64,000 nt of DNA from Neoroseomonas terrae (GTDB lineage Bacteria > Pseudomonadota > Alphaproteobacteria > Acetobacterales > Acetobacteraceae). The position numbers were made by a program, and so were the translations under genes. Location of the stretch: the NCBI RefSeq assembly GCF_018129025.1, contig NZ_JAAEDI010000007.1, positions 62,001 through 126,000 on the forward strand, given 5' to 3'. The notes under the pieces were generated by a model. That model made no database searches. It saw only the letters and a program-made list of their open reading frames with translations, and was not told the origin of the DNA. Within the stretch, counting starts at the first letter, position 1. The number at the start of each line of letters is the position of its first letter. Shown in pieces: positions 19,171 through 44,137 of the stretch.

Positions 19171-19180
19171 CGCGACCGGC

Positions 19181-23866: not shown

Positions 23867-25597
23867 TCAATGCACCCACAATCGGCGCTTGACCCACCGG
23901 ACGGGATCGCGAAGCAGTGCGGCCAGCCACGTCGTCTGTCCGGTCTCGATCCGCGCCCATCCTTCCATGCCGGGTCGGAACTCCGTGACATCGCTTTCCG
24001 TGATCCGCGCGACCACGCGGAAGACGTTGCGACCATCCACCACCTCGGCCATGGGCCGGATGCGCTCGACCACGGCTCCCCGGACACGGCCGGGTTCCGC
24101 TGCCATCGCGAAGCGGACCGGCTGGCCCTCGCGCAGCGCAGCGCTGTCCTCGTCCAGCACCAGCACTTCCGCGCGCAACGGCCCGGGCAGGGCGATCTCG
24201 AACAGCACCTGCCCGCGCGACAGTGCCTGGCCCAGGCTGCGGCGAAGATCACCCGCAATGATCAGACCGTCCGCGGGCGCGCGGATGTCCGCCAGGCGCA
24301 GCCGGTGTTCCAGCAGCGCCACCTGCGCCTCACTGCGTCGCGCCGCGAGCAGCGCGATCTGTTCCTGCGCCGGCTGTCCGCCCGCGCGTGCGACCGCGGC
24401 GTCACGCAAATCGTTCGCCGCCCGGGCGCGCGCCGCCGCCAGTTCCAGTTCCACGTCGCGCGTGCCGAGCCGGGCGAGCGATGTCCCGCCCTGACGGACG
24501 GTATCGCCGGGCTGCACCGCCGAAGCCTCCAGGATGCCATCGAAAGGTGCGGTGACCGCCTGCGCGTGGTCCGGCCGCAGGACGACCGGCGCCTCGACCA
24601 CGGCGGCGCGCGGCAGCACAGCGAGCACCGCGATCACTGCCGCCAAGCCGGCGACGAAGGCCCAGCGCCGCGACAGTCCGCGTCGCGATTCGGGCACGGC
24701 GGCCACGGCCCCCAGCAGCGTGGCCACCGGTCGCAGGCGCACGCTCAGGTCATCGTGGACGGCCGTACCGGGCGCGAAGGCAACCACGATGACCGCGCTA
24801 CCCGATGGCGACGGGACGGTCAGCAGCGCGTGCCGTCCCGCCTGCTCCGCGACGGCGCGTTCGGCGGGGCTGGTGGGCTCCTCGGCAAGGTGCGGCACAC
24901 CGCGATCGGCCGCCTCCTGTGCCAGGGACAGCAGCTGGCGCGGCAGCGGCGCGGCGGGCTCCATCTGCGGCTGGTCGGACAAGCCGAGCAGCCGCGCGCG
25001 CGGAAACACGATCGCGACGCGCTCGGCGCCCGGGATGCCGGCGGATTGGAGCAAGGCAGCCGCGTCATGCAGCCCGGCGGCGCGATCCGGCGCCGTCAGC
25101 AATGCTTCGGCCACGGCCGCGGCCAACGCCTGCGGCGCGCGTGCCTGGAACGCAGCCTCGACGGCGCCGGCCTCGGCGACGGCGCCGAGGAAGGCCAGGC
25201 GCTCCCGTGTGAGCGCGAGGTCCATCGGCAGCGCGGAGACGACTTCCAACACCAGCACCGAGTGCCGGCGCGCAGCGCCCGGCGGATCGGCGGGGCCGGT
25301 CGCCACCGCAAACACCCAGCGCCCGTGAACACCGGATGGCGCGGCGGCAATGCCGCGTCCGCTCGCCGCATCCTGCGCCAGCGCGGCCCAGCTCGCAGGC
25401 GCCGCCCCCCCATTCGCCGGCGCCAGAGCCTCCCAGACACCGGAGGTCGGCGCCAGCACGGCGCCCGCCTCGGCCATCGTCATCTCACGCCCAAGTTCTA
25501 GCAGGGCCTGCTCCCAGCCGGGATCGCGCCGCAGCAGCCGAAGCTGCGCCAGACGCTCGATCAGAGGGTCGGTCGGGCGTTGGGCCGGCGCGTTCAC
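23867..25597 (-). CDS. HlyD-family adaptor with large N-terminal GAF-like region
   Basis: A 576-residue protein with two parts. Residues 1-300 are predicted cytoplasmic, with an Ala-rich alpha/beta composition resembling one or two GAF-like domains. Residues 312-330 are one membrane helix. Residues 335-560 are a periplasmic adaptor module: split biotinyl-lipoyl motif (TAPFDGILEASAVQPGDTVR), a helical hairpin (about 385-430), then IRAPADGLI and a beta-barrel. It is last in the export cluster and overlaps the preceding adaptor by 4 bp. The GAF-like region could sense a signal or bind a partner inside the cell (inference). Confidence 0.85.
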   Translation of the reverse strand: MNAPAQRPTDPLIERLAQLRLLRRDPGWEQALLELGREMTMAEAGAVLAPTSGVWEALAPANGGAAPASWAALAQDAASGRGIAAAPSGVHGRWVFAVATGPADPPGAARRHSVLVLEVVSALPMDLALTRERLAFLGAVAEAGAVEAAFQARAPQALAAAVAEALLTAPDRAAGLHDAAALLQSAGIPGAERVAIVFPRARLLGLSDQPQMEPAAPLPRQLLSLAQEAADRGVPHLAEEPTSPAERAVAEQAGRHALLTVPSPSGSAVIVVAFAPGTAVHDDLSVRLRPVATLLGAVAAVPESRRGLSRRWAFVAGLAAVIAVLAVLPRAAVVEAPVVLRPDHAQAVTAPFDGILEASAVQPGDTVRQGGTSLARLGTRDVELELAAARARAANDLRDAAVARAGGQPAQEQIALLAARRSEAQVALLEHRLRLADIRAPADGLIIAGDLRRSLGQALSRGQVLFEIALPGPLRAEVLVLDEDSAALREGQPVRFAMAAEPGRVRGAVVERIRPMAEVVDGRNVFRVVARITESDVTEFRPGMEGWARIETGQTTWLAALLRDPVRWVKRRLWVH

Positions 25598-26421: not shown

Positions 26422-26431
26422 CGGTGGCACT

Positions 26432-28534
26432 CTACACTGCCAGCCGGCGCTGCAACGCCTGCCGGATGCGGCGCCAGGACTGGTCCAGCAGGGAGGCGGG
26501 CGGCAGGGCGATCCGTGCTTCGACCCGCGCGCCATGCCGCCAGGCGACGGAGGCCTCGGGCGCGACGCGCAGTTCAAACACCCGCTCGACCGGCCTCGCG
26601 GCGCCTTGGTCATCCGTGCGCGCCGGGATGCTGCCGCCATTGGCCAAAGCGAGGGCCGGCGATGGCAGGCTGTCGCGCGCCTCGATGGCCGGCCAGAGCG
26701 GTCGACCTTCGGTCTCGACAGCGCTGCCGCCCCGCAGGCGCAGCGCCATACGCACATCGTTGGTCGCAGCCAGGGCGGCGAGCACGGCGGGCCCGTCCCA
26801 TTGGTCCAGCACCAGCCGGACCTCCGCGGGCGCCTCGGACAGCAGCACGCCGAGCGGCCGCGCATCGTCGCGCCGCACCCATGCCCCCTTGAGGCTCTCC
26901 GCTCGCAGAGGTTCCCAGAGGGTACCGGGCGGCGCCGTCACCTCCCACTGCTCCCGTTCTGACTGAAGGCCGGCGATCTGGTTGGCCACCGCACGCTGGC
27001 GTTCGAGGGTCGAATCTACATGCTCGGTGCCGGTTGCGCGGGCGCGACGGCCCTCGATCGCGATGGCGGCTGCCTCGGCACGGAGCTGCGTCATCATTCG
27101 GTCGGTTTCGGGGTTCTGCAGGCGCAGCACGGGTGTGTCACCGGCCGGCCCGGGCTGGGCGACGGCGAGAAGCTGCCCATCGGTGCGCGGATATACGAAG
27201 GACAGGCCGGGGCGGATCACCACGCCCTCGACGACCACATGGTTGGGCAGCGGCAGCAGCGCGACGGCAGTGATGATGCCGGCAACCGCGGCGGCGAACA
27301 CCGTGGCGCGGGCCGGTGCCCGGCCGAAGGCGCCCGGTGCGGCTCGCGCCAGGCGCAACAGCGGCAGCGCCAGGAACAGCAGCGCGACCACCGAGGCCAC
27401 ACCACCCGCGAGCAGCCAGTGATGCCCGCCCGCCAGCCAGAAGATCGAGAGATAGATGGTCCAGCGATAGACCCAGGACCCCGCCGCATAGAGCCCGAGT
27501 GGCACATCCGCCGCCGCCGGCCAGCTGGCCATGCCGAAGGGTCCGAAAACCAGCCGGCCGAACGCCGCCTGCGCCCGCGCCATCAGGTTCGGGATGCCGA
27601 GCAGGTCCGACAGCACATAGTAGCCATCGAGCCGCGCCAGCGGGTTCAGGTTGAACAGCAGCGAGGAGACGGAGCAGATCACCACCAGGTCGAACATCCG
27701 CTCCCGCAGTGCCCCTGGCCCGAGCGCGGCCCAGGCGAGCGCGGCGAGGGCTGCAATCAGCAGGTCCGTCGCCACCCCAGCGAGGCCGACCGCCGCGCGC
27801 CGCCACGGGCTCCGCAGGAACCACGCCGAGGACGCGTCCACATAGGGCGCCGGCAGCAGGAACATGAACGACACGCCCCAGGGATGCGCGCCGACCGTCA
27901 GCCCTTCCGCCGCCGCCATGCGGTCCGCGGCGACAGCGTGGCCTGCCTCATGCAGCAGCTTGGCGCCGATGAAGAGCAGATAGCCTATGATGAGGTCGCC
28001 GACGCCGAGATCGCCATAGCGGGCGACATGCGCGGCGAGTTCGGGGCCCCTGCCCGCCCAGGCGATGGCTGCTCCGACGATCAGGGCAAGCAGAACTAGC
28101 GCACCGGCCGGGGTGTAGAGCCAGCCGAGCAGCGGTCGGAACACCGGCATCACGACGCCCATGTCGCCGATACGACATCGCGTGAAGGCCAACCCGGCAA
28201 CGGCCTTGATCGCGGCATTGCCCTGGCGCTGCGGCGGCCGCGCCCCGGGCACAACGATCAGCCCCGCCGCCATCATGCCACCGATGCCGCGCAGCAGGCC
28301 GTCCCGGTCCTCGCCGTTCGCGGCGCGACCGATCGCCTCCTCCACCGTGGTCCGGCCATCGAACGAGGCGACGATCAAATAGAGTTGGGGCGAGGCCCGG
28401 AAATACCGGCCGGTCGTAGGGTTGTGGAATACCCAGAGCGGCCGTCGTCCACTGTCGATCCGCCGCGCTGCAATGCCGGCGGCCAGCCGCGGGCGGACGC
28501 CGAGCAGCGCCGCGGCCGGATCCGGCGCGATCAG
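26432..28534 (-). CDS. M50 (site-2 protease family) membrane protein with adaptor-like C-terminus
   Basis: A multipass inner-membrane protein. The zinc motif HEAGH is at about residues 195-199, and the second-helix motif NLNPLARLDGYY is about 110 residues later. The last third is a periplasmic HlyD-like module (VVIRPGLSFVYPRTDGQL, coiled coil, barrel). The classical start is a TTG at 28378 (648 aa), but coding clearly continues 52 codons upstream (RPRLAAGIAARR, PLWVFHNPTTGRYFRASPQ), a domain usual in these proteins. There is no ATG, GTG or TTG there. A CTG at 28534 overlaps the preceding TGA as CTGA, like the ATGA overlaps nearby, so I infer a CTG start (700 aa). It may act as the export channel base or process the cargo. 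Confidence 0.85.
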   Translation of the reverse strand: MIAPDPAAALLGVRPRLAAGIAARRIDSGRRPLWVFHNPTTGRYFRASPQLYLIVASFDGRTTVEEAIGRAANGEDRDGLLRGIGGMMAAGLIVVPGARPPQRQGNAAIKAVAGLAFTRCRIGDMGVVMPVFRPLLGWLYTPAGALVLLALIVGAAIAWAGRGPELAAHVARYGDLGVGDLIIGYLLFIGAKLLHEAGHAVAADRMAAAEGLTVGAHPWGVSFMFLLPAPYVDASSAWFLRSPWRRAAVGLAGVATDLLIAALAALAWAALGPGALRERMFDLVVICSVSSLLFNLNPLARLDGYYVLSDLLGIPNLMARAQAAFGRLVFGPFGMASWPAAADVPLGLYAAGSWVYRWTIYLSIFWLAGGHHWLLAGGVASVVALLFLALPLLRLARAAPGAFGRAPARATVFAAAVAGIITAVALLPLPNHVVVEGVVIRPGLSFVYPRTDGQLLAVAQPGPAGDTPVLRLQNPETDRMMTQLRAEAAAIAIEGRRARATGTEHVDSTLERQRAVANQIAGLQSEREQWEVTAPPGTLWEPLRAESLKGAWVRRDDARPLGVLLSEAPAEVRLVLDQWDGPAVLAALAATNDVRMALRLRGGSAVETEGRPLWPAIEARDSLPSPALALANGGSIPARTDDQGAARPVERVFELRVAPEASVAWRHGARVEARIALPPASLLDQSWRRIRQALQRRLAV

Positions 28535-28938
28535 AACAGGAAGTCCACCCGCCGGCCGCCGCCCTCGCAGCGACCGGTGCCGCCACCGTCCAGGCCGCGT
28601 GGTGGGTTCAGCAGCCGGAAGCGGCAGCCCATCACCGACACGCCGCTGGTGTCCGCGATGTTGCCAACGAGGTCGGTGCCACCGCCGACCAGCGGCTGCC
28701 CCGTCGCCATGATCGGCACGACGACCGGCTGCTGTTCCGTCGCCAGAAGCCCCGTCAGCACGGTGCCGTCGGCGGCGACGAGTTCCATCTGCGTGCCGCC
28801 CTGCACCGGCGTTGCCGCGGCCGGCACGGTGCGGGGGCTGTCGGTCAGCCCCCGCGTCTCGGCACCTGAAAGGCGGGTCGATTCAGGTGCGCAGCCGGCC
28901 ACCAGCGTGGCGGCGAGGACAATGAGTCGCGGGGTCAT
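28531..28938 (-). CDS. Small lipoprotein of the export cluster
   Basis: A 135-residue protein. The N-terminus MTPRLIVLAATLVAGCAPES is a lipobox leader (LVAGC, lipidated Cys at 16). The mature part is Gly/Thr-rich beta sequence (GTQMELVAADGTVLTGLL) with two further cysteines (MGCRF and GRCEGG) that may form a disulfide. It overlaps the TolC gene by 4 bp, and its stop overlaps the inferred CTG start of the M50 gene. It may be an outer-membrane accessory of the export complex. Family not recognised. Confidence 0.8.
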   Translation of the reverse strand: MTPRLIVLAATLVAGCAPESTRLSGAETRGLTDSPRTVPAAATPVQGGTQMELVAADGTVLTGLLATEQQPVVVPIMATGQPLVGGGTDLVGNIADTSGVSVMGCRFRLLNPPRGLDGGGTGRCEGGGRRVDFLF

Positions 28939-30770
28939 CGCACGGCTCCCGTGCTGGAGGTTGGCCTGGGCGGGGCGGGATTGGTGTCGCGCCGGAAGAC
29001 GAAGGCGGGGCCGCGCGCCGCATCCTCGATCCGTCGCATCTCGAGGTTCTGCACCTGGGTGAAGGTGCCCTGCACGCGTTGCAGCGCAAGGAAGGCAATG
29101 GTGAAGGTCACTTCGGCCGCCGCGAAACGCTCCTCGGCGTCGGTCAGGCGCTCCTGTGCCGAAAGCAGGCGCTCGAGGGCATTGGCGGCGCCCTCCCCGG
29201 TGCCGGCCACGCCCTGCTGCCAGCGATCCGTCTCGACCGAGAGATCGCGGCCGGCGGCGCGTACTGCGCCCGCCCGCGCCGCCATCTCGCGATAGGCGAC
29301 GTTGTATTCGTTCAGCGTCACCTCGGCCTCGGCAATGATGGTGGCGAGCGTGGCGCGGCCCTGGTTCTCGATCTGCCGCGTCTCCAGCCGGCGGCGGTCG
29401 GCGCGCGCGCGCAGATCGTCGGTGCCGAGCGGGATCTCGATCCGCAACCCAAAGAAGCCGCCGGGCTGATCGGTGTTGCGGCGCGTGTCCTGCCAGGCCT
29501 GGCCCCATTGCCAGGTGTCGGCGGCCCGACCGCCATAGTTCCCTTCCAGGATCACGTCGAAGCGCGGCAGCGCCTCGATCTGTCCCTGACCCTCGCGCAG
29601 CACGGCGGCGCGGTGCTGGAGGAAGACCTGCTGCACCTCCGGCCGCAGCGCGACGGCGCGCTCCAGCACCGTTTGCAGCGGGATCGGCTCATAAGCGACG
29701 AGGGTCGCGTCGATCGGCAGCATGGTGCCGGCATCTGCGCCCTCGAAGCGCGGGTCGTTCACCAGGCCACGGATGCGGGCCTCGGCGTTGCGGATCGCGG
29801 CCTCGCTACGCAGCAGGTCGGCCTCCCGCAAGGCCAGCGCCGATCGCGAGCGGCTGGCCAGCAACGGGTCGGCGCCCAGCTCTGCCCGACCCTCGATCTG
29901 GCCTACGAGGCCGCGGATCGTGCCCACGGCGCGCTGGCGTTGCAGATGGACGGCGCGGGCCAGATACAGCCCCCAATAGGCACGCGAGATGTCGAGCAGG
30001 TGGCTTTCCGTCTGCCGCCGGAATTCGGCTTCCGCGACCCGCGCATCGAGCCGCGCGACCTCATGCAGGCTGCGCGTGTAGGCGACGCCGGAATCGCGCA
30101 GCAGCGGCTGCACGACGCTGATGAAAGTGCGCCCGCGGCTCTGGTTGTTGGGCGCGTAGTCGGTCGAGTTGGAGGACACGTTCCAGAAGCGCTGGCCGAT
30201 GGTGATTTCGCCACCGGTGATGGTGCGCTGCCGGATGCCGAGTTCGGCGGCCTGCTCGCGCTGGATCAACCGCTGGGACCCGTTGGTGTTGGCCGGGTTG
30301 CGGGTCGGATCGTTGATTGTCTCGGCACGACCCTCGCCATAGGCGCGGGGCACGTAGCGGCCGGCGACCTCGGCTTCCAGCGTTTCGCGAATGGCGGGCA
30401 GGTCGCCAAATACGCGGATCTGGGCGGAGTTGATGATGGCGCTGTCATAGAGGTAGGCGAGGCTGAGGCGCAGCGGCCGGCCGGATTGCGGGCCGTCCGC
30501 GGTAGCGACGCGCTGCACCCACCAGCGATCCGTGGTGCGCATGGCCTGCAATTCAGCCCGCGTTGGCGTTGCCATCGGCGCGGGACGGCGATTGATGCGG
30601 GCCATTTCTGCACTGATCTGGTCACGGTAGCGCGCCGTGATCTGGTCCACGTTCATGATGGCATTGTTGGTTCGATCGTTGATCCAGCCCTGCGCGAAAG
30701 CCGGCGCCGTCGTGGCAAGAAGCAGTGCGGCGCCGGCGATGTGGTGGGGCATTCGGTCCATTCCTGCCAT
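28935..30770 (-). CDS. TolC-family outer membrane efflux protein
   Basis: A 611-residue protein with a signal peptide (ending APAFAQ) and two TolC-type helical repeats. The helices around LLASRSRSALALREADLLRSEAA, the EPIPLQTVLERAVALRPEVQ block and NEYNVAYREMAARAGAV match outer-membrane efflux proteins. It is longer than the usual 430-500 residues, mainly through the N-terminal 150 residues. It begins 6 bp after the giant gene; an internal ATG at 30752 has a better-placed AGGA site than that at 30770. It would form the outer-membrane duct for the giant protein. Confidence 0.9.
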   Translation of the reverse strand: MAGMDRMPHHIAGAALLLATTAPAFAQGWINDRTNNAIMNVDQITARYRDQISAEMARINRRPAPMATPTRAELQAMRTTDRWWVQRVATADGPQSGRPLRLSLAYLYDSAIINSAQIRVFGDLPAIRETLEAEVAGRYVPRAYGEGRAETINDPTRNPANTNGSQRLIQREQAAELGIRQRTITGGEITIGQRFWNVSSNSTDYAPNNQSRGRTFISVVQPLLRDSGVAYTRSLHEVARLDARVAEAEFRRQTESHLLDISRAYWGLYLARAVHLQRQRAVGTIRGLVGQIEGRAELGADPLLASRSRSALALREADLLRSEAAIRNAEARIRGLVNDPRFEGADAGTMLPIDATLVAYEPIPLQTVLERAVALRPEVQQVFLQHRAAVLREGQGQIEALPRFDVILEGNYGGRAADTWQWGQAWQDTRRNTDQPGGFFGLRIEIPLGTDDLRARADRRRLETRQIENQGRATLATIIAEAEVTLNEYNVAYREMAARAGAVRAAGRDLSVETDRWQQGVAGTGEGAANALERLLSAQERLTDAEERFAAAEVTFTIAFLALQRVQGTFTQVQNLEMRRIEDAARGPAFVFRRDTNPAPPRPTSSTGAVR

Positions 30771-30776
30771 GCGTGA

Positions 30777-33700
30777 TCAGCGACCGACCACGCTTGCGGC
30801 TGCAGTGGCGGCGGCGAAGTCGAGGGCGAAGCGGTTCCAGGCCAGGCTGTTCGGCGCCGTCAGTTGTGGCGCGCCAATGGCCGCAGCGGCGGCAACGGCG
30901 CCTTGACTGCTCTGCGCGCCAACAAAGACGCCGCCGGCCTGGACCACGCCGCCGAAGGTCAGATGCAGCCGATCCATGCCGCTGCGCGTGTCGAAGGCGG
31001 CGGGGGCTTCACCGGCTATGACGGTGAAGGGCGCGGTGTTGGCGCTCGGCGTGCTGGAATAGCTCGCTAGGGCCGGCAGGGAGGACGCCCCCGCCGGTTG
31101 GGAGGTGCGGCCCGCGAGCGTGGCGAGGCCGGAAAGCGACGGGTCCTCCGCGCGCGCCCCGGGGCCGCTCGGCACGGGGTTGGCGATCCAATTGCCGCCG
31201 GTATCCGCCATCACGCCGACGATGGTGATCTGCTCACCGAAGGCGTTGATCAGGCCAAGCGTGACCGACGCGCCCGGTGCGGCCGTGCCGCTCAGCACCG
31301 TTGGGGCGGGAATGGTGTTGCGGGCGATGCGGCGGAACGCGTCCTCAAAATCTGCGAACAGCGAACCCTCGGATGGCGGCGGCGAGCTGGAGACGATCTG
31401 CACCTGTGCGGAATCCTGACCGGAGTCCGGCCGCAGGAAGCCGGCCGGCACCACGCCGGGCGCCGAGGTGCTGCTGAAGGTCGAGGTGTTCGGCGCGATG
31501 CCGTCCGGCACCGGCACGCCGACTGCGCGCGCCTGGAAGGTGATGGTCAGCACCTGACCCGGCATGAGCAGCGGCAGGCTGACGACGATGGTCGAATCGC
31601 CCGCGCCATTGCCGATGATGACGGTGCCGGCGGACGTCACCACGCTGCCCGCGACGAGCTTCAGCGAGGCATCCGACAGCGGGTCCTGCACCACGACCTC
31701 ATAGGCCGGGGCGGTTGAGTTCGGCGCGTGCGACAGGATGAGGGCGTAGGTGATCGGCTCGCCGAGGCTCACCGTCGTCGGGGTCACCTGCTTGTCGATC
31801 GTGAGCACGGCGGCGACCGCCTCGGCGCTCGCCGTGTCGCTGGCCGTCAGCCTGCCGCCCGGCACGGTGGGGTCGGCGGGCGCGGTCACGTCGGCCACGG
31901 CGCCGTTCGTCAGCACGGTGCCGGCCGGCGGCGTGGCGTTCAGCCGGGCGACGATCTCCACAACGATCTGGTCGCCGGCGATGTTGTCGCCGCTGTTCAC
32001 CACAATGCCGAAGTCGAAGACGACGCGACCATCCGTGATGGTGATGACCGGCGCACCTGCCGCTATGCCAGCGCCGAGGCCGACGAGGCGCGCTGATTCC
32101 GCGATCAGCCCCGGCGGCAGCGTGTCGGTGATGACGAGGCGCTGGGTGCCCTCCGACAGCGTGGCCGTGATGTGGAAGGTCACAGTCTCGCCGGCGGCGA
32201 CATCCGGCAGGGTGGGGTCGAAATAGGCGGTTCCGGTCTCGGGCAGCGACGTCGCGACGATGTCCTTGGTCAACCCGAGGACGAACTCCGCCCTCACCGA
32301 GGCCTCCGCGTCGTCGCCGAAATTTCGCGCGGCGAGGTTCGGCGCCGACGCATAGTCGAGCGTGGCGACGTTCGGCACGATCTGTCCCGGCTGAATCGCA
32401 TCCGCGAAGGCAGCCCGATACGTGATGATGATCGGCGCCGCGTCGGGCAGCATCACCGGCACTTCAACGCGGATCATGTTGCCGAAGATGGTTGCCGTGC
32501 CGGCGGAACTCGTCAGGCTGCCCGGCACGACGACGAGGAAGGGCGAGAGTGCGTCCTCGATCAAGAGGTCGTAGGCCGGCGCGTCGGTGCCGGCGGCGGG
32601 CGACACCGTGAGCGTATAGGTGAACACGTCACCCGCATCGCCCGTGACATGATCCACGGTCTTGTCGAGCAGGAAGCGCGGTACGACGATCTCCGCGGCC
32701 GCGCTGGCATCGAGGGTGATCGTGCCGCCCGGCGCACCCGGATTGCTGGGCGAGAAATCGATCGCCTGAGCGGCGTTGATCACCTGTCGCCCGTTCACGT
32801 TGAGAGGGACGTCGATCACGACCGCCGAGATGCGGATGACGATCTGGTCCCCGGCATTCGTGACGTTGTCGCCGGAGTTGACGATGGTGCCGAAATCGAA
32901 GGTGATGGTCTGGCCGGCGACGGGATCGCCGGCGAAGATCGCCGATGGCGTCAACGTGCCGCCGGCCCCCGCGCTGATCCCCGCCCCGGTCGAAACAACG
33001 AAGGCCGTGAACGGCGCCGCGAGCAGGCCGCCCGGCACGCGATCGGTCACGAGGAGGTTCTGCGTGCCCTCGGACAGCGTGACGACGAGTTCGTAGGTGA
33101 CGACCTCGCCGATCTCGAGATCCGGCAGGGTGGGATCGAAGCGATCGCTGCCCGTCTGCGGCAGGGATGTCGCGACGATCTCCTTCGTCAGCGTCGGGTT
33201 GAACACCACCGTCAGGTCCGGCGCGGATGCCTGCCCGGCATCGGGCCTGCCGCCGGTGCCCGGTTTGCTGTCCCAGCCGAGTTGCGCGGTGTTGCCGATC
33301 ACCTGGCCCTGCTCGACCGCATCCGTGAAACGGACGACATAGGTCAGTGTGATGGGCGCATCCGCGACCAGCAGGCGCGGGACGGTCAGGCGGATCTGAT
33401 TGCCAAGAATCTCGGCGGTGCCGACGCTCGCCGTCACCGACACCGGCACGAAGCGCGCATCGAGCGTGTCCGTCAGCAGCAGGTCGTAGGCGGCTGCGGT
33501 CGAGGTCGCGTCATGCGTGATCGTGACCGTATAGGTGAACAGGTCGCCCGCATCGCCGCTGGTGACATCCACCTGCTTCACGATGTCCAGCACCGGCTCA
33601 ACCAGTTCGGCGGGCGCCGTCACCTGGAGCGTGCCGTCCCGCCCGCCGATGGTGAAGGTCGCACCGCCATCGTTGATGATGGTGTCGCCTGCCGAGATGC

Positions 33701-36700
33701 CGGAAGCGTCGATCACCTGTGCGTCGATCTCGATGGTGATCTGGTCCTCAGCCCCCACCGTATCGCCGGAGCCGTTGACCACGGTGCCGAAGGCAAGCGC
33801 GATCGACTGCCCATTGATGGTGATGAGCGGAGCGCCGGCCGTGAGGCCACTGCCGACGGACACCAGCCGCGCGGCGAGCGGCTGCAGCGACGCCGGCAAC
33901 AGGTCGGCGAGAACCAGGTTCTCGGTCGTACCCTGTGGCAGGGTGATGGTCAGGCGGTAGGTGAGCGTCTCGCCGATCGCGAGGTCCGGTAGAACCGGAT
34001 TGAACTGGCCGGTGCCGGTATCGGGGTTGGACGTCGCCACGATCTGCTTGACCAGTGACGGCGCACCGGGCGTCTGCGTGCTGTCCTGCCCGCCATCGGG
34101 GCGGCCGCCTGCGCCCGCATTGCTGTCGAAGGTATCGGTCACGGTGTTGGTCAGCGTCACGCCACCGGGCGCATCGGCGGCGACCCGCGCGGTGAAGGTA
34201 ACCGTCACGGTTTGGCCGAGCGCGAGCACCGGGACCTCGACCCGCACGACGCTGTCTCCCGCGCCGTTGCCGAGAACGATGGTACCGAGATTGGTCGTCA
34301 CGCTGCCGGCGACGAGGTCGAGGTACGGATCGGCCAGCAGGTCCTGCAACACGACGTCATAGGCAGCGGAGGTCGATCCCGGCTGATGCGTCAGCGTGAC
34401 CGTGTAGAGGATGGTCTCGCCCGCCGCGACGAAGCCGGGCGGCGCTGTCTTGTCGATGACGAGTTCGGGCTCAACGATCTCGGCCGAGGTCGCGGCGTCG
34501 TCGGTCAGGGTGCCGCCAGGGCGCTGTGGATCGTCCGGCGCGGTGACGACGGCCTGCGCCGCATTGGTCATTACCGTACCAGCTTGGTTGCCGGCAATGT
34601 CGAGCACGCGCGCGACGACCGTGATCGTCACGGTGCCGTCCCCGCCGATGTTGTTCCCGGTGTTCACCACAGTGCCGAAATCGAACAGGATACCCTGTCC
34701 GGTGCCGGTGTTAGCGATCGAGGCGAGTGATCCGGGCAACCCAGCACCGACGCCGGTCACCGCCGCCGAAAGCAATTCGAGACCGGCGGGCAAGGTGTCG
34801 CTGACCACCAGCGTCTGCGTGCCTTCGGCCAGCGTCGCGACGATCTGATAGGTGACCGTCTCGCCCACGGCGAGGTCCGTGAGTGCCGGATCGAACTGCG
34901 ACATACCGGTCTCCGGCAGGGATGTCGCAATGATGGCTTTGCTGAGATCGAGGGTGAAGACGCCGGTGACATCCTGCGCCGAGGCCTGGCCGCTGCCGGG
35001 AATACCGCCGGTGCCAGCGCTGCTGTCAAAGTCGAGCGTCGCCGTGTTGCCGACGACCTGTCCCGGCTGGACGGTATCGCGGAAGGCCACGACGTAAGTC
35101 ACCACCACCGGCGCGTCGGTCGTCAGGAAGCTCGGCAAGGTCACTCGGATCACGTTGCCGCTGATGGTCGCAGTGCCGGCGCTGCTGCTGACCGAAACAG
35201 GCACGAAGACCGCATCGAGCACGTCCTCGACCACCAGATCATAGGCGGCGCTGCTGGAACCCGCCGCGTGCTGGACGGTGACGGTATAGGTGAAGCGGTC
35301 ACCGGCATCGCCCGTCAGTTGGTCGACGGATTTGACGATGGTCACCTCGGGAGCAACGATCTCGGCCGAGGTGCTGTCCGTCGCTGTCTGTGTCCCGCCG
35401 GGCGCGGCCGGATTGTCCGGCGAAGCGATCGTCACCTGGGCGGCGTTGGTGAGTACGGTGCCGGCGGCGATCGGTGACGCGTCGCGGACGCGCGCAACGA
35501 CCTCGATCGTCACCGTGCCGTCCGCAGTGTTGTTGTTGCCGGTGTTCACCACCGTGCCGAAGTCAAAGCGGAGCTGCTGTCCCGTTCCGCTGTTCGCAAT
35601 GCCGGTCAGGCCCGGCGGCAGCCCTGCGCCGACGGCCGTGACGGCTGCGGAAACCAGTTCAAGCTCACCCGGCAGCAGGTCCTCGATCAGCAGCGTCTGC
35701 GTGCCTTCAGACAGCGTGGCGACGATGCGATACGTCACTGACTCGCCCTGGGCGAGGTCCGTCAGCGTCGGGTCGAACTGCCCGGTGCCCGTTTCGGGCA
35801 GCGAGGTCGCGACGATCTGCTTGTCGATGGCGACCGGCATGGCGACCGTGACGATCGCCGACGCCTGGTCGGTCAGGGTCTCGGTGGTCGGCCCGCCACC
35901 GGGAGCGGTCGCACCCAAATAGACAGCTGTGTTGGTGATGACCTGTCCCGGCTGAACCGTATCCGCCAGCCGCACGCTGTATGTGATGGTGACCGCGGAT
36001 TCGTCAATGCCGGCCGTGGTCGGGTCATCCGCCGGCAGCAGCGCCGCGCCGTTCAGGGTGAGAGTCACGGTATTGCCCGACTCACCGACCGTGCCGCGCG
36101 ATGCGGTGGCGCTGCCGGCGACGAGCACATAGCCCGCCGGCAGCGTGTCAGCGACCGTGAGGTCGTACAGCGGCGCCGTCGCGTTCGTCGTCTGCATCAG
36201 GGTGACGGTGAAGGTGACGAGGTCCCCCGCATCGCCGGTCGTGATGGACGCCGTCTTGGTGATGGTCACCTCGGGCGCGACGACCTCCACATCCGTTGAC
36301 GCCGCGAAGCTGCGAGTGTCGGTGGTGAAGGTGGCTTGGTTGGTGAGGACATCGCCCGCAACGTTGACGCCGGGCAGCACCCGGGCAACGACGCGCATGA
36401 CGATCACCCCGTCATCGGCGATGTTGTTGCCGGTGTTCACGACGCCCGCGCCGAAGTCGAACGTCACCTGCCCGCCGGACAGCACGGGTATGGCACCCAC
36501 GCCGATTGAGGTGTTCGAGATGCCGCTGCCGATCGACACGACGGAGCCTGACACGAAGTCGAGCCCTGCCGGCAGCGCATCCGCGACCAGCACCTTCTGC
36601 GTACCCTCGCCGAGCGTCAGCCGGATCTCGTAGGTCACCGTCTCGCCGATCGCGAGGTCAGGCAGGGAGGGGTCGAAGTAGGCGGACGTCGTCTCGGGCA

Positions 36701-39700
36701 GCGAGGTGTCCACGACGGTCTTCTCGATCGCCTCGGCCAGCACCACGGTGACGGTCGCGGTATCGGTCGCGCTGTCGGGCCTTGCCTCGGGGAAGCCGAG
36801 CGGGGCGCTCTGCCAGGTCAGCGATGCCGTGTTGGTCAGGACATCGTCGTGCCGGACAGAATCCGTGAGCCGTGCCTGGTAGGTGACGGTCAGCACGCCA
36901 TCCGCCAAGGCCAGCGCCTCGGAAAGCTGGCTGAGCGCGACCTCAACGCGCATGTCGCCGACGCCGTTGCCAACTCGGATGCTGAACGTGCCGAGGGAAT
37001 TCGCGAGCGTTGCGGTCACGCTGCCTGCAACAAGCTGGAGCCCCGGCGCCAGCGTATCCGTCAGGACAAGGTTGTAGCCGTCCGAGGTCGAGAGTTGATC
37101 GTGGGTGATCGTGACCGTGTAGGTCACGATGTCGCCCGCGTCCCCGGTGGCGATGTCCGCCGCCTTGTCGATCGTCAGTTCGGGCGAGACGATCTCGACG
37201 CTGGCGCTTGCGGTCAGCAGCCCGTTCGGATCGGCGGCGCGCGTGTATTCGAGCAGCGCGCTGTTGGTAAGCTGGTCACCCGGTGCGTTCGACGGCCGGT
37301 TCACGACCCGGCCTTCCACTTCGAACACCAGAATGTCCGCGGACGTCACCGCATTGTCGGCAAGATTGGTGACGAAGCCGAGATTCCAGATGATGGTGTC
37401 AAGCAGCCCGTCGCCGTTGGTGTCCGACACGACGCCGACATCGCCGATGCTCGGCCCACCCGGCCCGAAGCGCAGATTGGCGCCGATCGAGACGATGCGG
37501 CTGCTGATCCATTCCATGTCGCCCGCGATGGGGTTCGCACCCATCGCGATCGGGAGGATATCCGTCAACACAAGATTGGTCGTCACCTCGGGCATCGCGA
37601 CGGAGATGAGGTAGGTGACGGTCTCACCCACCGCGACGTCTTCGGTCAAGCGAGCGAGTTCGAGAATGCGCGTCGAGGCGATGTCGGTTCCGGAGATCGC
37701 CTTCGTGAGAACAGGTCGGGAGACGATGAAGTTCTCGCTGTCCTGGACGGGGCCGTAGTCGCGCTGATAGATCGTGCCCGGATCGCCCGGATGGCTGTCG
37801 AAGATCACCGACGCCGTATTCACCAGGATCTGGTCGGGCCTCACGGTGTTGGCGACGATGGTCGAGTAGGCGAAGCTGACGGCACCCCCTTCATAGGTCA
37901 TCACTGGAACGGTGACGACGATCTGCCGGGTCAAGACGTTGTACGCCAGCGTCGCACCCGGCAGCGTCGCACCGATGAAGGTGAGGCTCGACGGATCGAT
38001 CTCCATGCCCTCGGGGACCGTATCCGTCAGCACCACGTCGTAGGCGGGACCATCCTGGAAGCTCGGCACACGCGCGACGACGGTATAGTCGATCCTGTCG
38101 CCACCATCGCCGCCGACGGCGCTGGCGGTCTTGTCGATCGCCATGTTCGGCTCGACGATATCGACCTGTGCCGTGTCGCTGACCGACGTGATCACGCCAC
38201 CCGTGTCGAAGGTCACGGTCGATGTATTGATCGGCGCGTTGCCGACCCGATTCGACGGGTCGTCGCGCACCCGGGCGGTCACGGTGAACTCCAGCTGGTC
38301 CCTGGCGTCGAAAATGCCGTCTGCGGCGTTCGTGGCTGTCCCGACAGACCATTCGACCCCGTCCGCGATGCCGTCGCCATTGCGATCAACCGGGGTGAGA
38401 GCACCTGGGTTGCTGATAGTGATGTTCGATCCGGTGCGCACGAGTTGGGCGTCGAGAAATTCGAACAACCCATCCGTCGCCGCGCCGAAGGGCAGCGGCA
38501 GGTAGTCCGCGAAGGTCACGAACTGCGTGACGGCCTCGGGCAGCGTCACGACGATCCGATAGGTGACGACCTCTCCGATCGCGAGATCCGGGCGCGAAGA
38601 GTCGAACCGGTCGCTGCCCGTCTCGGGCAGGCTCGTATCCGCGGCTACAACCGTTTTCGCGATGCCGGGGCCTGGCACCTGCACTGTCGCGGTCGCGGAC
38701 TGGGTGAACTCCCGCTCCACCCCCAACGGGTTCGTGCCGGGAAAGCTGTCGGCCCGGCCGGACGCCGTATTGGGCAGGATGCTGCCGGCCAGCACCGTTG
38801 GCGAGACCAGCGCCTGATAGGTGATGACCACGGTCTCGCCTGGCATGATCACCGGCGCGGTGACGGTGATGACGCCACCCGCCTCGCTGATCGTGGCGCC
38901 GCCGGCGGGGCCGGTGACGATGAATGCGCTACCGGAGACCAGCGTGAGGAGGCCGGGCAGCAAGGGGTCGGTCAGGATCGCGTCGAAGACAGGGCCAGCC
39001 GTATTCGACGCGATGGGCGCGTAGGTGACCGTGTAGGTGACGATGTCGTTGCCCTGGACGAAGTCGCGATCGGCGTCTTTCGTCAGGATGAAGGCGGGCC
39101 CGACAATCTCGGCCGTCGCCGTATCGGTGATCGTGACGACCTGGCCGGAGGCGGTGAACATCAGCGCAGCGGTGTTGACGAGATCGACGCCCGGCGCGTT
39201 GCCGGGCACGTCCGCCGCCACCGCGGTGACGCGCAGGACGATGCGGTCGCCACTGCTCACCACATTGTCCGGCACGTTGATCACGTCATCGGCGAAGGTG
39301 AAGCGAATGACATTGCCAATCACGTCGATCGTCGGCGGGCCCAGCGCCCCGATCACGGCGCCGGAACCATCAGCCGCGAACAGGTTCGACCCGATCGACA
39401 CCAGTTGCGCAGTGACATAGTCGAGCCGGCCCGGTGAAACCGGTAGCCGGTCTTCGACGATGAATCCCTGGAGCCGTCCTTCCTGCAACGTCACCGTCAG
39501 GTCGAAGGTGATGGTCTCCCCGATGTTGAGATCGGGGAAGGCCGGATTATCCGCCGACGACCCGGTCTGCGGCAGCGAGGTATCGACGATCTGCTTGTCC
39601 ATCGTCGGATCGCTGATCAGGGTCTCCGCTGTGTCGGTCGTCTGCTCGGTCGTGGTCGGCACCCGGTCCACACCGCCCTCGACGGCAGCGTAGTTCTCGA

Positions 39701-42419
39701 CCTCGGCGAGGTTGGAGTGCACCGACCGCGCCTCGACGAGATCCGTGACAAGCAGATCGTAAGTGATGACGACGATGTTCGCCCCTCCCGTCGGGGCATA
39801 GGAGGCGAGCGCCCCACGCCCCACGGGATCGATCAGTTCCACGATCGCACCCGTCGCCGTCGGCGTCAGGATGTAGGCCAGCGCATTGCCGGCGCCGTCC
39901 GTGACCTGAAGATTCAGCCCCAGCGGAGGAATGACGTAGCCGTCCGGATGGTCGTCTCCCATCCTGATGTCGAAGGCGCCATTGATGCCACGGCCGCGAT
40001 TCTCGATGACGACAGCGAAGGTCACGAGGTCACCGGCATCGACATTGCCGAGATTGCTGTCGATCGGGGTGGCCGCGAGGTTCGTACTGTCGATCGTGCC
40101 GATGAAGCGCACGCCGGCCGAGCCCGGCGCGTTGAAGACTACCGGCGCGACGGCACCGGGGCTGAAGATGCCGGCGGGATTGTCAGTCGCAACAATGCCC
40201 TTGGTGATGCGCAGTTCGGGTTCCGTCAGCGTCACCGTCGTGATTGCCGCGCTCTCGGCGATCACGGTACCCGTCGGCGTCAGTTCCACACCCTGCACGG
40301 TGTTCGTCATGAGCAAACCGTCGCCGAACGGCGCGTCGATCACGCGCACCGTGAACAGCAGGTCGGCGGAGGTCGCCAATGTGCTGCCGGGATACAGGTC
40401 CAGGAACTCGACCGCGAAGCTGTTGTTGGCAGCGTCGATCGTCACAAGTGGCGCTTGGGACAGCACGGCCAGGAAGGCGGCCGCGTCCGGTCCCCATTGA
40501 ATCACGTTCTCGGCGGGGGGCGTAGCGCCCGGCGTGCCGGCGATCGTCGTGCCGAGCCCGGCCACCGTGAAGATCGGCAGCGGCAGGTAGTCGGTCAGGA
40601 TCAGGTCATCGGCGAGCGACTGCGGCAGGTCGTACTTGATGCGGTAGGTGACAAGATCACCGGCACCGATCTCAACGGCGGCACCCGGCACGACCAGCGT
40701 GCCGTTGATCGCATAGACCACCTTCGTGATGGAGCCGGTGGTGATCGTCCCGCCGCTCTGGCTGGTGTCGTCGGGGATGTTGCCAGTGGGCGTGCCGCCG
40801 TCAACCACCTCCGCGCCCACACTCACGCTGTTCGAGATGCTGTCGCCCTGCACGACCGGCTGACCCGTGCCCAGGAAGGTCGAGCCGATGACGGCTTCGT
40901 AGCTGATGCGAAGCACCGTCGCGGAGCCCGCGAACTCGCCCCCTGTCAGCAGGGCGTCCATGGCGCCATTCGCCAGAAGCTGGTCCGAGACCAGGAAGCG
41001 GAAGGTTGTGACGCCCGTCATCGGATCGCGGGTCACCACGATGTTGGGGGCGGTGAAGTTGCCCGATCCGGCCGTCGATCCGCCCTCGAAGACCAACAGC
41101 GTCGCAGAGCCATCCACATAGGACTGCCCATCCGACATCAGGTCGGTCAGCGTCAGCCCCTGGAACTGGAAGTAGTCCGAGATTTGGACATCGATCGTGT
41201 AGCGCAGCGTATCGCCCGGCCCCAAGCCCGGCGCTCCCGCATCGACCTCGATCACCTGTGTCTTCTGCGTCGCGATGCTGCGGGCGATGACCGTGGCCTC
41301 GGGGCCTGGCTCATCGATGGTGATGGTCTGCTGTGCGTCGCGCGTATCGATCGGCGTCCAGTCGACCGTCGCCGTCACGTTGTTCTCGAGGGTTCGCGGC
41401 GCGCCGGTTGCCGGATCGAGCACCGGTGTCCCCGGATCGCCCGGCGCCATGGTCTCGCCGATGTAGAAGGTGATCGTCAGCGTGCCATCGACGCCGGCGA
41501 CACCGACATAGCTGCCGTTCAGCGTCGCCGTCACCGTATGCGCGATCGGATCGTAGCTGGCGGTCCCGGGCAGCCCGGACAGGACGGGCGCGCCGACGAC
41601 GACCAGGCCGTCCGGCAGCAGGTCGGTAAAGGTCGCGTTGGTCAGCGTCTGGCCCGCCGCGATGTCCAGGCTGACGGTGAAGCTCCGCGGGAAGTTCGGG
41701 CCGGTTGTCGTCTCGCCTTCCGGCCCATTGTAGACCTTGTCGAACGTCAGCAGCTTCGGCGTAACGGTGCCGGATGCGGTGGCTCCGAGCACCGGCGCAT
41801 CGGTTGTCGGATTGTCCGTCGCGTCGCGGCCCAGTGCGAACCCGCCGACGGCTGAAACCGGAAGCGGCGTGTCGACGTCCGCGAGATTCGAAACCTGCAC
41901 CGTGACATCGATGGCTGCAGCGGGCTGCGAGGGTACAAACGACCCGAAGGGCAGCCGCATGACGACGAGCTGGTCGCCCGCTGACGCCCCGTAATCCGCC
42001 GCATTCACGACGCGCAGATTGCCCGAAGCATCCTTGGCGAAGGGGTGGGTCGCCTGACCGTTTGCGTCGAATTCGAGCACCGTCGACTGGACCGATTGAC
42101 CCAGATACGTAGCACCCACGAAGGTGACGCCATCATTCTCATTGGGCGACGTGCTGCCCACGCCTGCGCCATCGGCTCCGTTCTGCGGCAGCACCAGGTC
42201 GACATATGGCGCGTAGCCGACATCGCTGCCGCCGCTACCGTCGGGCTGGTTCTGGAAGGTGACGGTAAGATGGGCTTGCTCGCCGACCAACGGCGTGGGG
42301 TCGCTGCTGATCGTCGTGACCGGCTGCGCAGCCAGAAGAACGCGTTCCTCGAGCACATCAAAATGTGAATCTCGTGGTGCCATCCTGGCTATCTCGATCA
42401 GCCCCATGAGCCGAACCAT
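30777..42419 (-). CDS. Giant LEPR-XLL repeat protein (3880 aa), probable exported surface protein
   Basis: A 3880-residue protein. Residues near 20-32 (FDVLEERVLLAAQ) match the LEPR-XLL motif found at the N-terminus of very large exported proteins. There is no classical signal peptide. The body is DUF11/fimbrial-isopeptide-like beta domains. A two-domain unit of about 290-320 residues recurs about nine times: a domain opening SLPETG..FDP..LPDLAIGE..TY, then one opening TGDAGD..TYTVT..H. The C-terminal 300 residues differ: a spacer after PPPSEGSL, a TIPAPTVLSGTAAPGASVTL block, and an Ala-rich end. No RTX nonapeptides and no cysteine were noticed on reading. It is followed at once by TolC, lipoprotein, M50 and HlyD genes, its likely exporter. 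Confidence 0.9.
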   Translation of the reverse strand: MVRLMGLIEIARMAPRDSHFDVLEERVLLAAQPVTTISSDPTPLVGEQAHLTVTFQNQPDGSGGSDVGYAPYVDLVLPQNGADGAGVGSTSPNENDGVTFVGATYLGQSVQSTVLEFDANGQATHPFAKDASGNLRVVNAADYGASAGDQLVVMRLPFGSFVPSQPAAAIDVTVQVSNLADVDTPLPVSAVGGFALGRDATDNPTTDAPVLGATASGTVTPKLLTFDKVYNGPEGETTTGPNFPRSFTVSLDIAAGQTLTNATFTDLLPDGLVVVGAPVLSGLPGTASYDPIAHTVTATLNGSYVGVAGVDGTLTITFYIGETMAPGDPGTPVLDPATGAPRTLENNVTATVDWTPIDTRDAQQTITIDEPGPEATVIARSIATQKTQVIEVDAGAPGLGPGDTLRYTIDVQISDYFQFQGLTLTDLMSDGQSYVDGSATLLVFEGGSTAGSGNFTAPNIVVTRDPMTGVTTFRFLVSDQLLANGAMDALLTGGEFAGSATVLRISYEAVIGSTFLGTGQPVVQGDSISNSVSVGAEVVDGGTPTGNIPDDTSQSGGTITTGSITKVVYAINGTLVVPGAAVEIGAGDLVTYRIKYDLPQSLADDLILTDYLPLPIFTVAGLGTTIAGTPGATPPAENVIQWGPDAAAFLAVLSQAPLVTIDAANNSFAVEFLDLYPGSTLATSADLLFTVRVIDAPFGDGLLMTNTVQGVELTPTGTVIAESAAITTVTLTEPELRITKGIVATDNPAGIFSPGAVAPVVFNAPGSAGVRFIGTIDSTNLAATPIDSNLGNVDAGDLVTFAVVIENRGRGINGAFDIRMGDDHPDGYVIPPLGLNLQVTDGAGNALAYILTPTATGAIVELIDPVGRGALASYAPTGGANIVVITYDLLVTDLVEARSVHSNLAEVENYAAVEGGVDRVPTTTEQTTDTAETLISDPTMDKQIVDTSLPQTGSSADNPAFPDLNIGETITFDLTVTLQEGRLQGFIVEDRLPVSPGRLDYVTAQLVSIGSNLFAADGSGAVIGALGPPTIDVIGNVIRFTFADDVINVPDNVVSSGDRIVLRVTAVAADVPGNAPGVDLVNTAALMFTASGQVVTITDTATAEIVGPAFILTKDADRDFVQGNDIVTYTVTYAPIASNTAGPVFDAILTDPLLPGLLTLVSGSAFIVTGPAGGATISEAGGVITVTAPVIMPGETVVITYQALVSPTVLAGSILPNTASGRADSFPGTNPLGVEREFTQSATATVQVPGPGIAKTVVAADTSLPETGSDRFDSSRPDLAIGEVVTYRIVVTLPEAVTQFVTFADYLPLPFGAATDGLFEFLDAQLVRTGSNITISNPGALTPVDRNGDGIADGVEWSVGTATNAADGIFDARDQLEFTVTARVRDDPSNRVGNAPINTSTVTFDTGGVITSVSDTAQVDIVEPNMAIDKTASAVGGDGGDRIDYTVVARVPSFQDGPAYDVVLTDTVPEGMEIDPSSLTFIGATLPGATLAYNVLTRQIVVTVPVMTYEGGAVSFAYSTIVANTVRPDQILVNTASVIFDSHPGDPGTIYQRDYGPVQDSENFIVSRPVLTKAISGTDIASTRILELARLTEDVAVGETVTYLISVAMPEVTTNLVLTDILPIAMGANPIAGDMEWISSRIVSIGANLRFGPGGPSIGDVGVVSDTNGDGLLDTIIWNLGFVTNLADNAVTSADILVFEVEGRVVNRPSNAPGDQLTNSALLEYTRAADPNGLLTASASVEIVSPELTIDKAADIATGDAGDIVTYTVTITHDQLSTSDGYNLVLTDTLAPGLQLVAGSVTATLANSLGTFSIRVGNGVGDMRVEVALSQLSEALALADGVLTVTYQARLTDSVRHDDVLTNTASLTWQSAPLGFPEARPDSATDTATVTVVLAEAIEKTVVDTSLPETTSAYFDPSLPDLAIGETVTYEIRLTLGEGTQKVLVADALPAGLDFVSGSVVSIGSGISNTSIGVGAIPVLSGGQVTFDFGAGVVNTGNNIADDGVIVMRVVARVLPGVNVAGDVLTNQATFTTDTRSFAASTDVEVVAPEVTITKTASITTGDAGDLVTFTVTLMQTTNATAPLYDLTVADTLPAGYVLVAGSATASRGTVGESGNTVTLTLNGAALLPADDPTTAGIDESAVTITYSVRLADTVQPGQVITNTAVYLGATAPGGGPTTETLTDQASAIVTVAMPVAIDKQIVATSLPETGTGQFDPTLTDLAQGESVTYRIVATLSEGTQTLLIEDLLPGELELVSAAVTAVGAGLPPGLTGIANSGTGQQLRFDFGTVVNTGNNNTADGTVTIEVVARVRDASPIAAGTVLTNAAQVTIASPDNPAAPGGTQTATDSTSAEIVAPEVTIVKSVDQLTGDAGDRFTYTVTVQHAAGSSSAAYDLVVEDVLDAVFVPVSVSSSAGTATISGNVIRVTLPSFLTTDAPVVVTYVVAFRDTVQPGQVVGNTATLDFDSSAGTGGIPGSGQASAQDVTGVFTLDLSKAIIATSLPETGMSQFDPALTDLAVGETVTYQIVATLAEGTQTLVVSDTLPAGLELLSAAVTGVGAGLPGSLASIANTGTGQGILFDFGTVVNTGNNIGGDGTVTITVVARVLDIAGNQAGTVMTNAAQAVVTAPDDPQRPGGTLTDDAATSAEIVEPELVIDKTAPPGFVAAGETILYTVTLTHQPGSTSAAYDVVLQDLLADPYLDLVAGSVTTNLGTIVLGNGAGDSVVRVEVPVLALGQTVTVTFTARVAADAPGGVTLTNTVTDTFDSNAGAGGRPDGGQDSTQTPGAPSLVKQIVATSNPDTGTGQFNPVLPDLAIGETLTYRLTITLPQGTTENLVLADLLPASLQPLAARLVSVGSGLTAGAPLITINGQSIALAFGTVVNGSGDTVGAEDQITIEIDAQVIDASGISAGDTIINDGGATFTIGGRDGTLQVTAPAELVEPVLDIVKQVDVTSGDAGDLFTYTVTITHDATSTAAAYDLLLTDTLDARFVPVSVTASVGTAEILGNQIRLTVPRLLVADAPITLTYVVRFTDAVEQGQVIGNTAQLGWDSKPGTGGRPDAGQASAPDLTVVFNPTLTKEIVATSLPQTGSDRFDPTLPDLEIGEVVTYELVVTLSEGTQNLLVTDRVPGGLLAAPFTAFVVSTGAGISAGAGGTLTPSAIFAGDPVAGQTITFDFGTIVNSGDNVTNAGDQIVIRISAVVIDVPLNVNGRQVINAAQAIDFSPSNPGAPGGTITLDASAAAEIVVPRFLLDKTVDHVTGDAGDVFTYTLTVSPAAGTDAPAYDLLIEDALSPFLVVVPGSLTSSAGTATIFGNMIRVEVPVMLPDAAPIIITYRAAFADAIQPGQIVPNVATLDYASAPNLAARNFGDDAEASVRAEFVLGLTKDIVATSLPETGTAYFDPTLPDVAAGETVTFHITATLSEGTQRLVITDTLPPGLIAESARLVGLGAGIAAGAPVITITDGRVVFDFGIVVNSGDNIAGDQIVVEIVARLNATPPAGTVLTNGAVADVTAPADPTVPGGRLTASDTASAEAVAAVLTIDKQVTPTTVSLGEPITYALILSHAPNSTAPAYEVVVQDPLSDASLKLVAGSVVTSAGTVIIGNGAGDSTIVVSLPLLMPGQVLTITFQARAVGVPVPDGIAPNTSTFSSTSAPGVVPAGFLRPDSGQDSAQVQIVSSSPPPSEGSLFADFEDAFRRIARNTIPAPTVLSGTAAPGASVTLGLINAFGEQITIVGVMADTGGNWIANPVPSGPGARAEDPSLSGLATLAGRTSQPAGASSLPALASYSSTPSANTAPFTVIAGEAPAAFDTRSGMDRLHLTFGGVVQAGGVFVGAQSSQGAVAAAAAIGAPQLTAPNSLAWNRFALDFAAATAAASVVGR
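31650..39610 (-). repeat. Nine-fold long repeat within the giant gene
   Basis: The segment encoding the [ST]-LPxTG-containing domain opening recurs near 32235, 33151, 34021, 34909, 35791, 36691, 37660, 38620 and 39565, a period of about 870-970 bp. Copies near 32.2-36.7 kb are closest to each other at DNA level (shared words such as GTCTCGGGCAGCGA); those near 37.7 and 39.6 kb are more diverged. Such repeats allow unequal recombination and are a risk for assembly. Confidence 0.85.
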
Positions 42420-44118: not shown

Positions 44119-44137
44119 GGCGTGTCTGCCTTCGTTC

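Follow-up and report, generated by a model that had tools for sequence, protein, structure and literature searches.

A candidate leader-addressed exporter for LEPR-XLL giant proteins, in a gene family with SecA-bearing and SecA-less branches

A block of six adjoining genes in the window, the 64-kb stretch of DNA analysed here (positions 62001-126000; part of a 5.77-Mb genome that is 98% complete), is probably a dedicated exporter of the giant protein encoded at its head. This exporter would be addressed by the N-terminal leader of the giant and driven by a SecA-type ATPase, in this genome the housekeeping SecA. The locus type itself and the idea that its M50 protein is a pore are already in print (sections on the locus in Kamneva, Poudel and Ward, 2015; PMC4452313). 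New here are the branch devoid of a dedicated SecA, the RRE-like domain of the M50 protein and the link between the locus and LEPR-XLL proteins.

The gene block and its giant protein

The six genes, all on the minus strand (23867-42419), follow one another head to tail in the order giant, TolC-family outer-membrane factor (OMF), lipoprotein, M50 protein, HlyD, and GAF-HlyD (Table 1). Giant and OMF genes are separated by 6 bp, the OMF/lipoprotein and lipoprotein/M50 junctions are 4-bp overlaps, the M50 and HlyD genes lie 10 bp apart (counted from the HlyD ATG), and HlyD and GAF-HlyD overlap by 4 bp. The initial annotation had described a tightly packed block with gaps or overlaps of 10 bp or less and no ABC, RND or MFS motor. 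Both points hold; indeed, Pfam finds no ABC, RND, or MFS domain in the six block proteins. The closest ABC ATPase among the scanned ORFs of the window (18992-20299) carries a TOBE domain, is of importer type and lies on the opposite strand, 3.6 kb outside the block; ATPase and permease together span 18992-21974.

Table 1. Features of the six-gene block, with positions in the window
Feature	Position	Strand	Description
Giant protein gene	30777..42419	-	3880 aa, 0 Cys; DUF11 / RrgB-like isopeptide repeats; predicted export substrate
Leader of giant, residues 1-37	42309..42419	-	Short N-terminus then FDVLEERVLLAAQPV; LEPR-XLL type
TolC-family outer-membrane factor (OMF)	28935..30770	-	611 aa; two PF02321 stretches; signal peptide by eye
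Small lipoprotein	28531..28938	-	135 aa; lipobox ..LVAGC; present in 4/4 loci of the window clade
RRE-like + M50 + MexA-like adaptor fusion	26432..28534 (start approximate)	-	About 700 aa, probable CTG start
HlyD/RND-type periplasmic adaptor	25594..26421	-	275 aa
GAF-GAF-TM-HlyD adaptor	23867..25597	-	576 aa

The giant-OMF-lipoprotein-M50 order recurs in three other genomes of the window's family (L116/L117, L118, and L119), and the block is therefore not a chance arrangement. At L116, HlyD and GAF-HlyD genes come next, as in the window; the contigs of L118 and L119 stop before that point. The lipoproteins of the window, L116, and L119 have a common C-terminal ..LLNP.RG.DGG..G.C.G motif, found in a looser form in L118, and the lipoprotein is plausibly a partner of the OMF. 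GAF is not detected by Pfam in the window GAF-HlyD protein; it is found in 28 of the 36 aligned members, and the AF2 model of the window protein shows GAF folds.

Upstream of the giant gene, the region 43126-48266 (minus strand) encodes a HAD hydrolase, a DUF7939 protein, and a VWA protein, and looks like a Bat/MoxR-type cluster. At L117, the genes adjoining the giant run in the other direction than those upstream of the window giant. Further along the window, 58432-60861 encodes a large serine recombinase (Resolvase, Recombinase, and zinc ribbon), possibly part of a mobile element.

RrgB-type domains form Lys-Asn isopeptide bonds. In the giant, such domains are found in 10 stretches and DUF11 in eight (Pfam and NCBIfam), and its 3880 residues include 28 Lys and no Cys. 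About 19 of the 28 Lys, counted by eye, stand at repeat starts, as in pilin-like, self-locking repeats, here in a Gram-negative giant. The Pfam and NCBIfam scans report mainly repeat-type domains and no target domain of type I secretion.

The giant begins with MVRLMGLIEIARMAPRDSHFDVLEERVLLAAQPV, where the LEPR-XLL motif takes the LEER form and reads LEERVLL. Against the NCBIfam model LEPR-8K (NF012209; cut-off 17 bits), the first 60 residues score 16.8 bits, and the genome search, which includes neighbours in frame, gives 18 bits; at the stricter E limit of the phylum-wide LEPR search, the window genome scored as LEPR-negative. The three further genomes of the window clade have leaders of the same form: LEERVLLAAQPV (L119), LEERIMLAAQPV (L151), and LEPRLLFAAQPV (L148), the last from a genome whose M50 gene lies on another contig. 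In a broader set of 34 rows, the first position of a leader core [FLVI]xxL fits in 25, the L being fixed by the search pattern and at least four rows being spurious, namely L068, L072, L090, and a 378-aa frame from L119. In a set of 33 rows, which was based on a tightened motif and excludes L068, L072, and L090 and in which duplicates of one gene remain (L117/L151 and L125/L143), the longest run without charged or strongly polar residues is at most 9 in 30 rows, by a crude measure. The block's own signals reach 5 (HlyD), 12 (OMF), and 13 (lipoprotein) on this scale, and the measure is a hint only because the HlyD signal scores below most leaders. Kyte-Doolittle and uncharged-run measures were accordingly set aside as too crude to prove that the leaders differ from Sec signals.

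The M50 protein and its association with LEPR giants

The first ATG, GTG, or TTG of the M50 frame comes only at 28378, within the first domain. The probable start is a CTG at 28534-28532, which overlaps the stop codon of the lipoprotein gene and gives a protein of 700 aa, in line with the length of relatives. The protein is predicted to combine a PqqD/RRE-like fold at its N-terminus with an intact S2P active site and, as third part, a MexA-like adaptor domain. The predicted N-terminal fold is beta-beta-beta-alpha-alpha-alpha, as in RRE/PqqD domains. The S2P motifs are HEAGH (194-198) and NLNPLARLDG (294-303), whose H, E, H, N, P, and D are invariant in all 28 aligned members; the long helices around them in the predicted model are taken as membrane helices. 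HExxH is present in 118 of 118 M50-domain frames, picked without an HExxH filter and with the motif counted anywhere in the frame. Pfam PF02163 matches the window protein at 16.8-16.9 bits, below its cut-off of 27.2, and matches 26 of the 28 aligned members at E up to 0.05. No S2P structure was among the matches listed in structure searches for residues 100-425, which says nothing against an S2P fold, because the listed matches are filled by the adaptor and N-terminal domains. Relatives named to genus include Roseomonas fluvialis (65% identity) and an uncultured Roseococcus (40%). Taken together, the RRE-like fold, the intact S2P site, and the adaptor domain suggest that the M50 protein reads and cuts the LEPR leader. 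A leader-cutting role had been put forward in the initial annotation, and the conservation of HExxH and the predicted RRE-like fold make it likelier.

In a phylum sample of 349 genomes, relatives of the M50 protein were found in 91, about a quarter (E up to 1e-15, without a control set). LEPR-8K scored over its cut-off in 79 of these genomes, 68 of them M50-positive, and in one of 14 known genomes searched as a control. LEPR frames of at least 700 aa occur in 65 genomes, of which 62 are M50-positive (the exceptions are G239, G399, and G422), and frames of at least 2000 aa in 51, of which 50 are M50-positive. Matches in small frames only, found in 16 genomes with six M50-positive ones, are likely due to chance. 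Within the window's family (200 genomes), the M50 protein is present in 27 genomes and an over-cut-off LEPR frame of at least 700 aa in 18; 14 have both, and four (G050, G119, G167, and G175) have the LEPR frame without M50. The p-values for these three associations (3e-42 and 5e-34 in the phylum, 4e-11 in the family) treat the genomes as independent, which they are not. Adjacency was assessed with 150 listed M50 places, at most three candidates being scored per genome: among 93 LEPR frames of at least 700 aa, 46 are on a contig with a listed M50 place, at a distance of at most 15 kb in 43 cases. The co-occurrence of LEPR giants with the M50 family, which the initial annotation had proposed to look for, is thus borne out, and so is the tie that it drew between LEPR-XLL giants and an ABC-less duct, ABC signatures being found at only 4 of 80 relative loci.

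ATPases of the locus and its SecA-less branches

GTDB genomes were scanned with the M50 alignment, and 80 loci were kept from at least 585 relatives. Judging by titles, they come from Planctomycetota, Verrucomicrobiota, Proteobacteria, Nitrospirota, Fibrobacter, and others. With our own gene calls, a SecA-like ATPase is found at 66 of the 80 loci (always within 5 kb), a GAF-HlyD protein at 65, a separate HlyD at 54, an OMF at 21, and a frame of at least 1000 aa at 37; these are lower bounds, because contig ends cut many loci. Where 8 kb is available on both flanks, SecA is present at 29 of 35 loci. SapC-family (PF07277) genes also recur, at 12 of the 80 (for example L024:4774-5517 and L047:12176-13030). 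A motif scan detected ABC ATPase signatures at four loci, within 5 kb at two of them. An ABC motor as the usual rule in homologous clusters, the outcome that would have told against the initial annotation, is rejected on these counts. At L178 and L180, two adjacent ABC genes lie outside the block and would form an importer pair.

The SecA label denotes a profile match at E up to 1e-4. Four such proteins were checked with Pfam, and all four contain SecA_DEAD, SecA_PP_bind, and the SecA P-loop domain; the L180 protein so labelled (20 bits) has the sequence of a DEAD-box helicase. Among 71 SecA-like neighbours, three (L038, L073, and L183:10742-12694) have neither GxGK[ST] nor a DEAD motif according to a crude pattern, and are possibly dead as ATPases. 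SecA is missing locally at 14 of the 80 loci. In the 12 genomes examined (all except those of L009 and L056), eight have a canonical SecA and a second, shorter one, two have the short form only, and two have SecA of canonical length only. Outside the window's family, local absence therefore usually does not mean absence from the genome.

In the window genome, no secondary SecA is detected with Pfam SecA_DEAD or with a profile of 23 secondary SecAs including two degenerate ones. The genome has one canonical SecA frame, matched in two stretches, and a hidden divergent SecA is not supported, the next-best match, in a 708-aa frame, scoring 22 to 26 bits. In the family, 27 genomes are M50-positive; a secondary SecA is encoded in 11 of these, and the other 16 have the canonical form alone. 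Each of the 16 proved to have a housekeeping SecA, and beside canonical frames the secondary-SecA profile gave nothing above 26 bits there. G018 is not counted as bearing a secondary SecA: its second SecA_DEAD match (24.9 bits, cut-off 24.6) covers 59 residues in a 1206-aa frame and scores 16 bits with the profile. A LEPR giant and the M50 protein are found without a secondary SecA in the window genome (G000), G018, G020, G036, G045 (on one contig), G052, and G162.

At the scale of the phylum, we considered the 70 M50-positive genomes other than G000 with completeness of at least 90% and contamination of at most 5% (20 M50-positive genomes fall outside these limits). With M50 scores of at least 440 bits, 28 of 31 genomes have a secondary SecA, or 29 with the degenerate G221, which is counted here as without one and whose 650-aa SecA-like neighbour has no ATPase motifs. 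With scores below 440 bits, none of 39 has a secondary SecA, this group including six genomes whose best M50 score was not listed and was taken as 0 (G255, G332, G368, G387, G500, and G544). No GAF protein was found in 17 stretches from 16 genomes with this low-score M50 type (L132-L135 are examples from the window's family); the usual set is an OMF, a HlyD, a 440-510-aa HlyD, and the M50 protein, with leaders such as LEPRMMFDGA. Overall, LEPR frames of at least 700 aa occur in 50 high-quality genomes, and Pfam detects no secondary SecA in 24 of them.

An M50 tree (100 rows, quick search, SH-aLRT support only, midpoint root) has SecA-less forms at three places: the GAF-less set, the window clade, and a clade made up of G020, G036, and G018. 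The window clade comprises 14 rows (support 100), with genomic context known for three and not for 11. The G020/G036/G018 clade is nested within the SecA-bearing part of the tree (support 100). Thus, more than one lineage has probably lost the dedicated SecA or never acquired it. The motor-less cluster of the initial annotation is a valid description of the window branch, in which both the cluster and the 98%-complete genome are devoid of a secondary SecA. It does not extend to the family at large and, since a secondary SecA is usually present there within 5 kb, replacement of the motor by the M50 protein cannot be a general rule.

Proposed export route, alternatives, and known systems

In the route that we propose, the LEPR-XLL leader would act as an address tag and would be bound on the cytoplasmic side by the PqqD/RRE-like domain of the M50 protein, in keeping with the fold of this domain. 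The unfolded giant would then be threaded through the inner membrane at a platform formed by the M50 and GAF-HlyD proteins, where the intact S2P site may clip the leader region. By analogy with known families, the adaptor domains of the M50-HlyD, GAF-HlyD, and HlyD proteins would build a periplasmic barrel docked on the TolC-like OMF, and the giant would exit through one continuous duct. A SecA-type ATPase would supply the push, and this is the weakest step. Because the dedicated SecA is absent from the window branch and the housekeeping SecA is the sole SecA of the genome, the latter is most likely the motor there.

Two alternatives retain the giant as substrate of the block and differ in how it crosses the inner membrane. 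In the version of the initial annotation, no ATPase is involved: the M50 protein would itself be channel and gate, and the giant would be pulled by folding or binding outside or by the proton gradient. The lack of a secondary SecA in 16 of the 27 M50-positive family genomes and in all 39 high-quality, low-score GAF-less genomes of the phylum is in its favour, as are the three neighbours with neither ATPase motif in the crude pattern. We nevertheless regard it as unlikely, given a SecA-like neighbour kept at 66 of 80 relatives, a housekeeping SecA in each of the 16 family genomes, and a pore that is hypothetical. The other version is a two-step route, in which SecYEG and the housekeeping SecA would take the giant across the inner membrane and the M50, HlyD, and TolC proteins would serve only for processing and for the step from periplasm to outside. 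The capture of the giant before translocation, indicated by the predicted cytoplasmic location of the RRE and GAF domains, argues against it, as do leaders without a typical hydrophobic core in the crude run measure (at most 9 in 30 of 33 rows). Such a route is quite unlikely, even if it would suit a genome with one canonical SecA and a block whose OMF, lipoprotein, and HlyD carry N-terminal signals that look ordinary by eye.

RTX and serralysin domains are type I secretion hallmarks, and ABC proteins are common in any genome. A published LEPR-XLL giant from Vibrio, about 8000 aa long, carries RTX and serralysin domains at its C-terminus (described in PMC10868602), which counts against the proposed mechanism and would fit an ABC or other exporter encoded elsewhere and acting as motor in trans. 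With ABC motifs at 4 of 80 relative loci, two of them within 5 kb, and importer-type genes as the nearest ABC genes of the window, this is very improbable. Finally, the duct could serve a small molecule or peptide, as in daptide-like biosynthesis, the giant being an unrelated neighbour. The sole NCBIfam match of the M50 part is indeed the daptide protease NF041824, but its 104 bits are far below the cut-off of 300 and the association with LEPR giants holds across many families; we give this idea hardly any credence.

The leader-addressed, SecA-driven exporter that we favour shares features with several known systems. The closest is the M50/GAF/HlyD locus type with a secondary SecA ATPase, for which SecA was proposed as the ATPase and the M50 protein as the inner-membrane pore (Kamneva, Poudel and Ward, 2015; PMC4452313). 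Like the window, that locus as described there has M50-HlyD, GAF-HlyD, HlyD and, in some cases, OEP proteins, and no ABC protein; it differs by its secondary SecA_DEAD protein, whereas the window has none and has a conserved lipoprotein. Methylobacterium extorquens AM1 is among the reported carriers of the locus in its SecA-bearing form. Neither LEPR nor giant appears as a word in the main text of that paper, and its sections on the locus describe no RRE domain. It is the only paper on the locus among the matches listed, judged by titles and abstract starts. Searches, largely of journals outside subscription, found the term LEPR-XLL in two papers, a single time in each, and no literature that links it to an M50/HlyD locus; no experiments on the export of LEPR giants are among the literature matches listed. 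As in the type I secretion system (HlyB-HlyD-TolC), HlyD-type adaptors and a TolC-family OMF adjoin the gene of a very large substrate. However, type I systems have an ABC ATPase and a C-terminal signal, while no cognate ABC ATPase is found among the six block proteins and the predicted signal is the N-terminal LEPR leader. The window giant resembles LEPR-XLL domain proteins (NF012209) in having the motif at the N-terminus of a giant repeat protein, and differs by its LEER form at the edge of the cut-off.

Leader recognition and removal have parallels among RiPP systems. Like the M50 proteases of these systems (EpeP of epipeptides, the daptide protease NF041824), the window M50 protein is a predicted membrane metalloprotease that would be tied to leader removal; unlike them, it carries an adaptor domain in the same chain and is accompanied by an OMF and a giant substrate. 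EpeP is thought both to cleave and to export, which is a precedent (PMC10885120). The predicted beta-beta-beta-alpha-alpha-alpha N-terminal fold is shared with RRE-dependent leader recognition (lasso B1, PqqD, TigE), where the substrate is a small peptide and not, as predicted here, a chain thousands of residues long. The leader core [FLVI]xxL also resembles a W/Y/LxxP/L/I motif reported for one RRE trajectory (PMC12710340).

More broadly, and only tentatively, LEPR-XLL may be the address tag of a distinct Gram-negative pathway for the secretion of giant proteins. An RRE-S2P-adaptor fusion would read the leader, open the duct, and cut the leader. Such a pathway would exist in two versions, one equipped with its own secondary SecA and the other, represented by the window and the GAF-less lineage, lacking any dedicated ATPase. 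The question matters because the M50 family occurs in about a quarter of the sampled genomes of the phylum (91 of 349), alongside open frames with a LEPR start that reach 19,427 residues. Combining a leader motif, a reader domain, and a protease in one protein would offer a testable account of how giants are recognised, and the SecA-bearing and SecA-less branches provide a natural experiment on whether an ATPase pushes them and, if so, which one.
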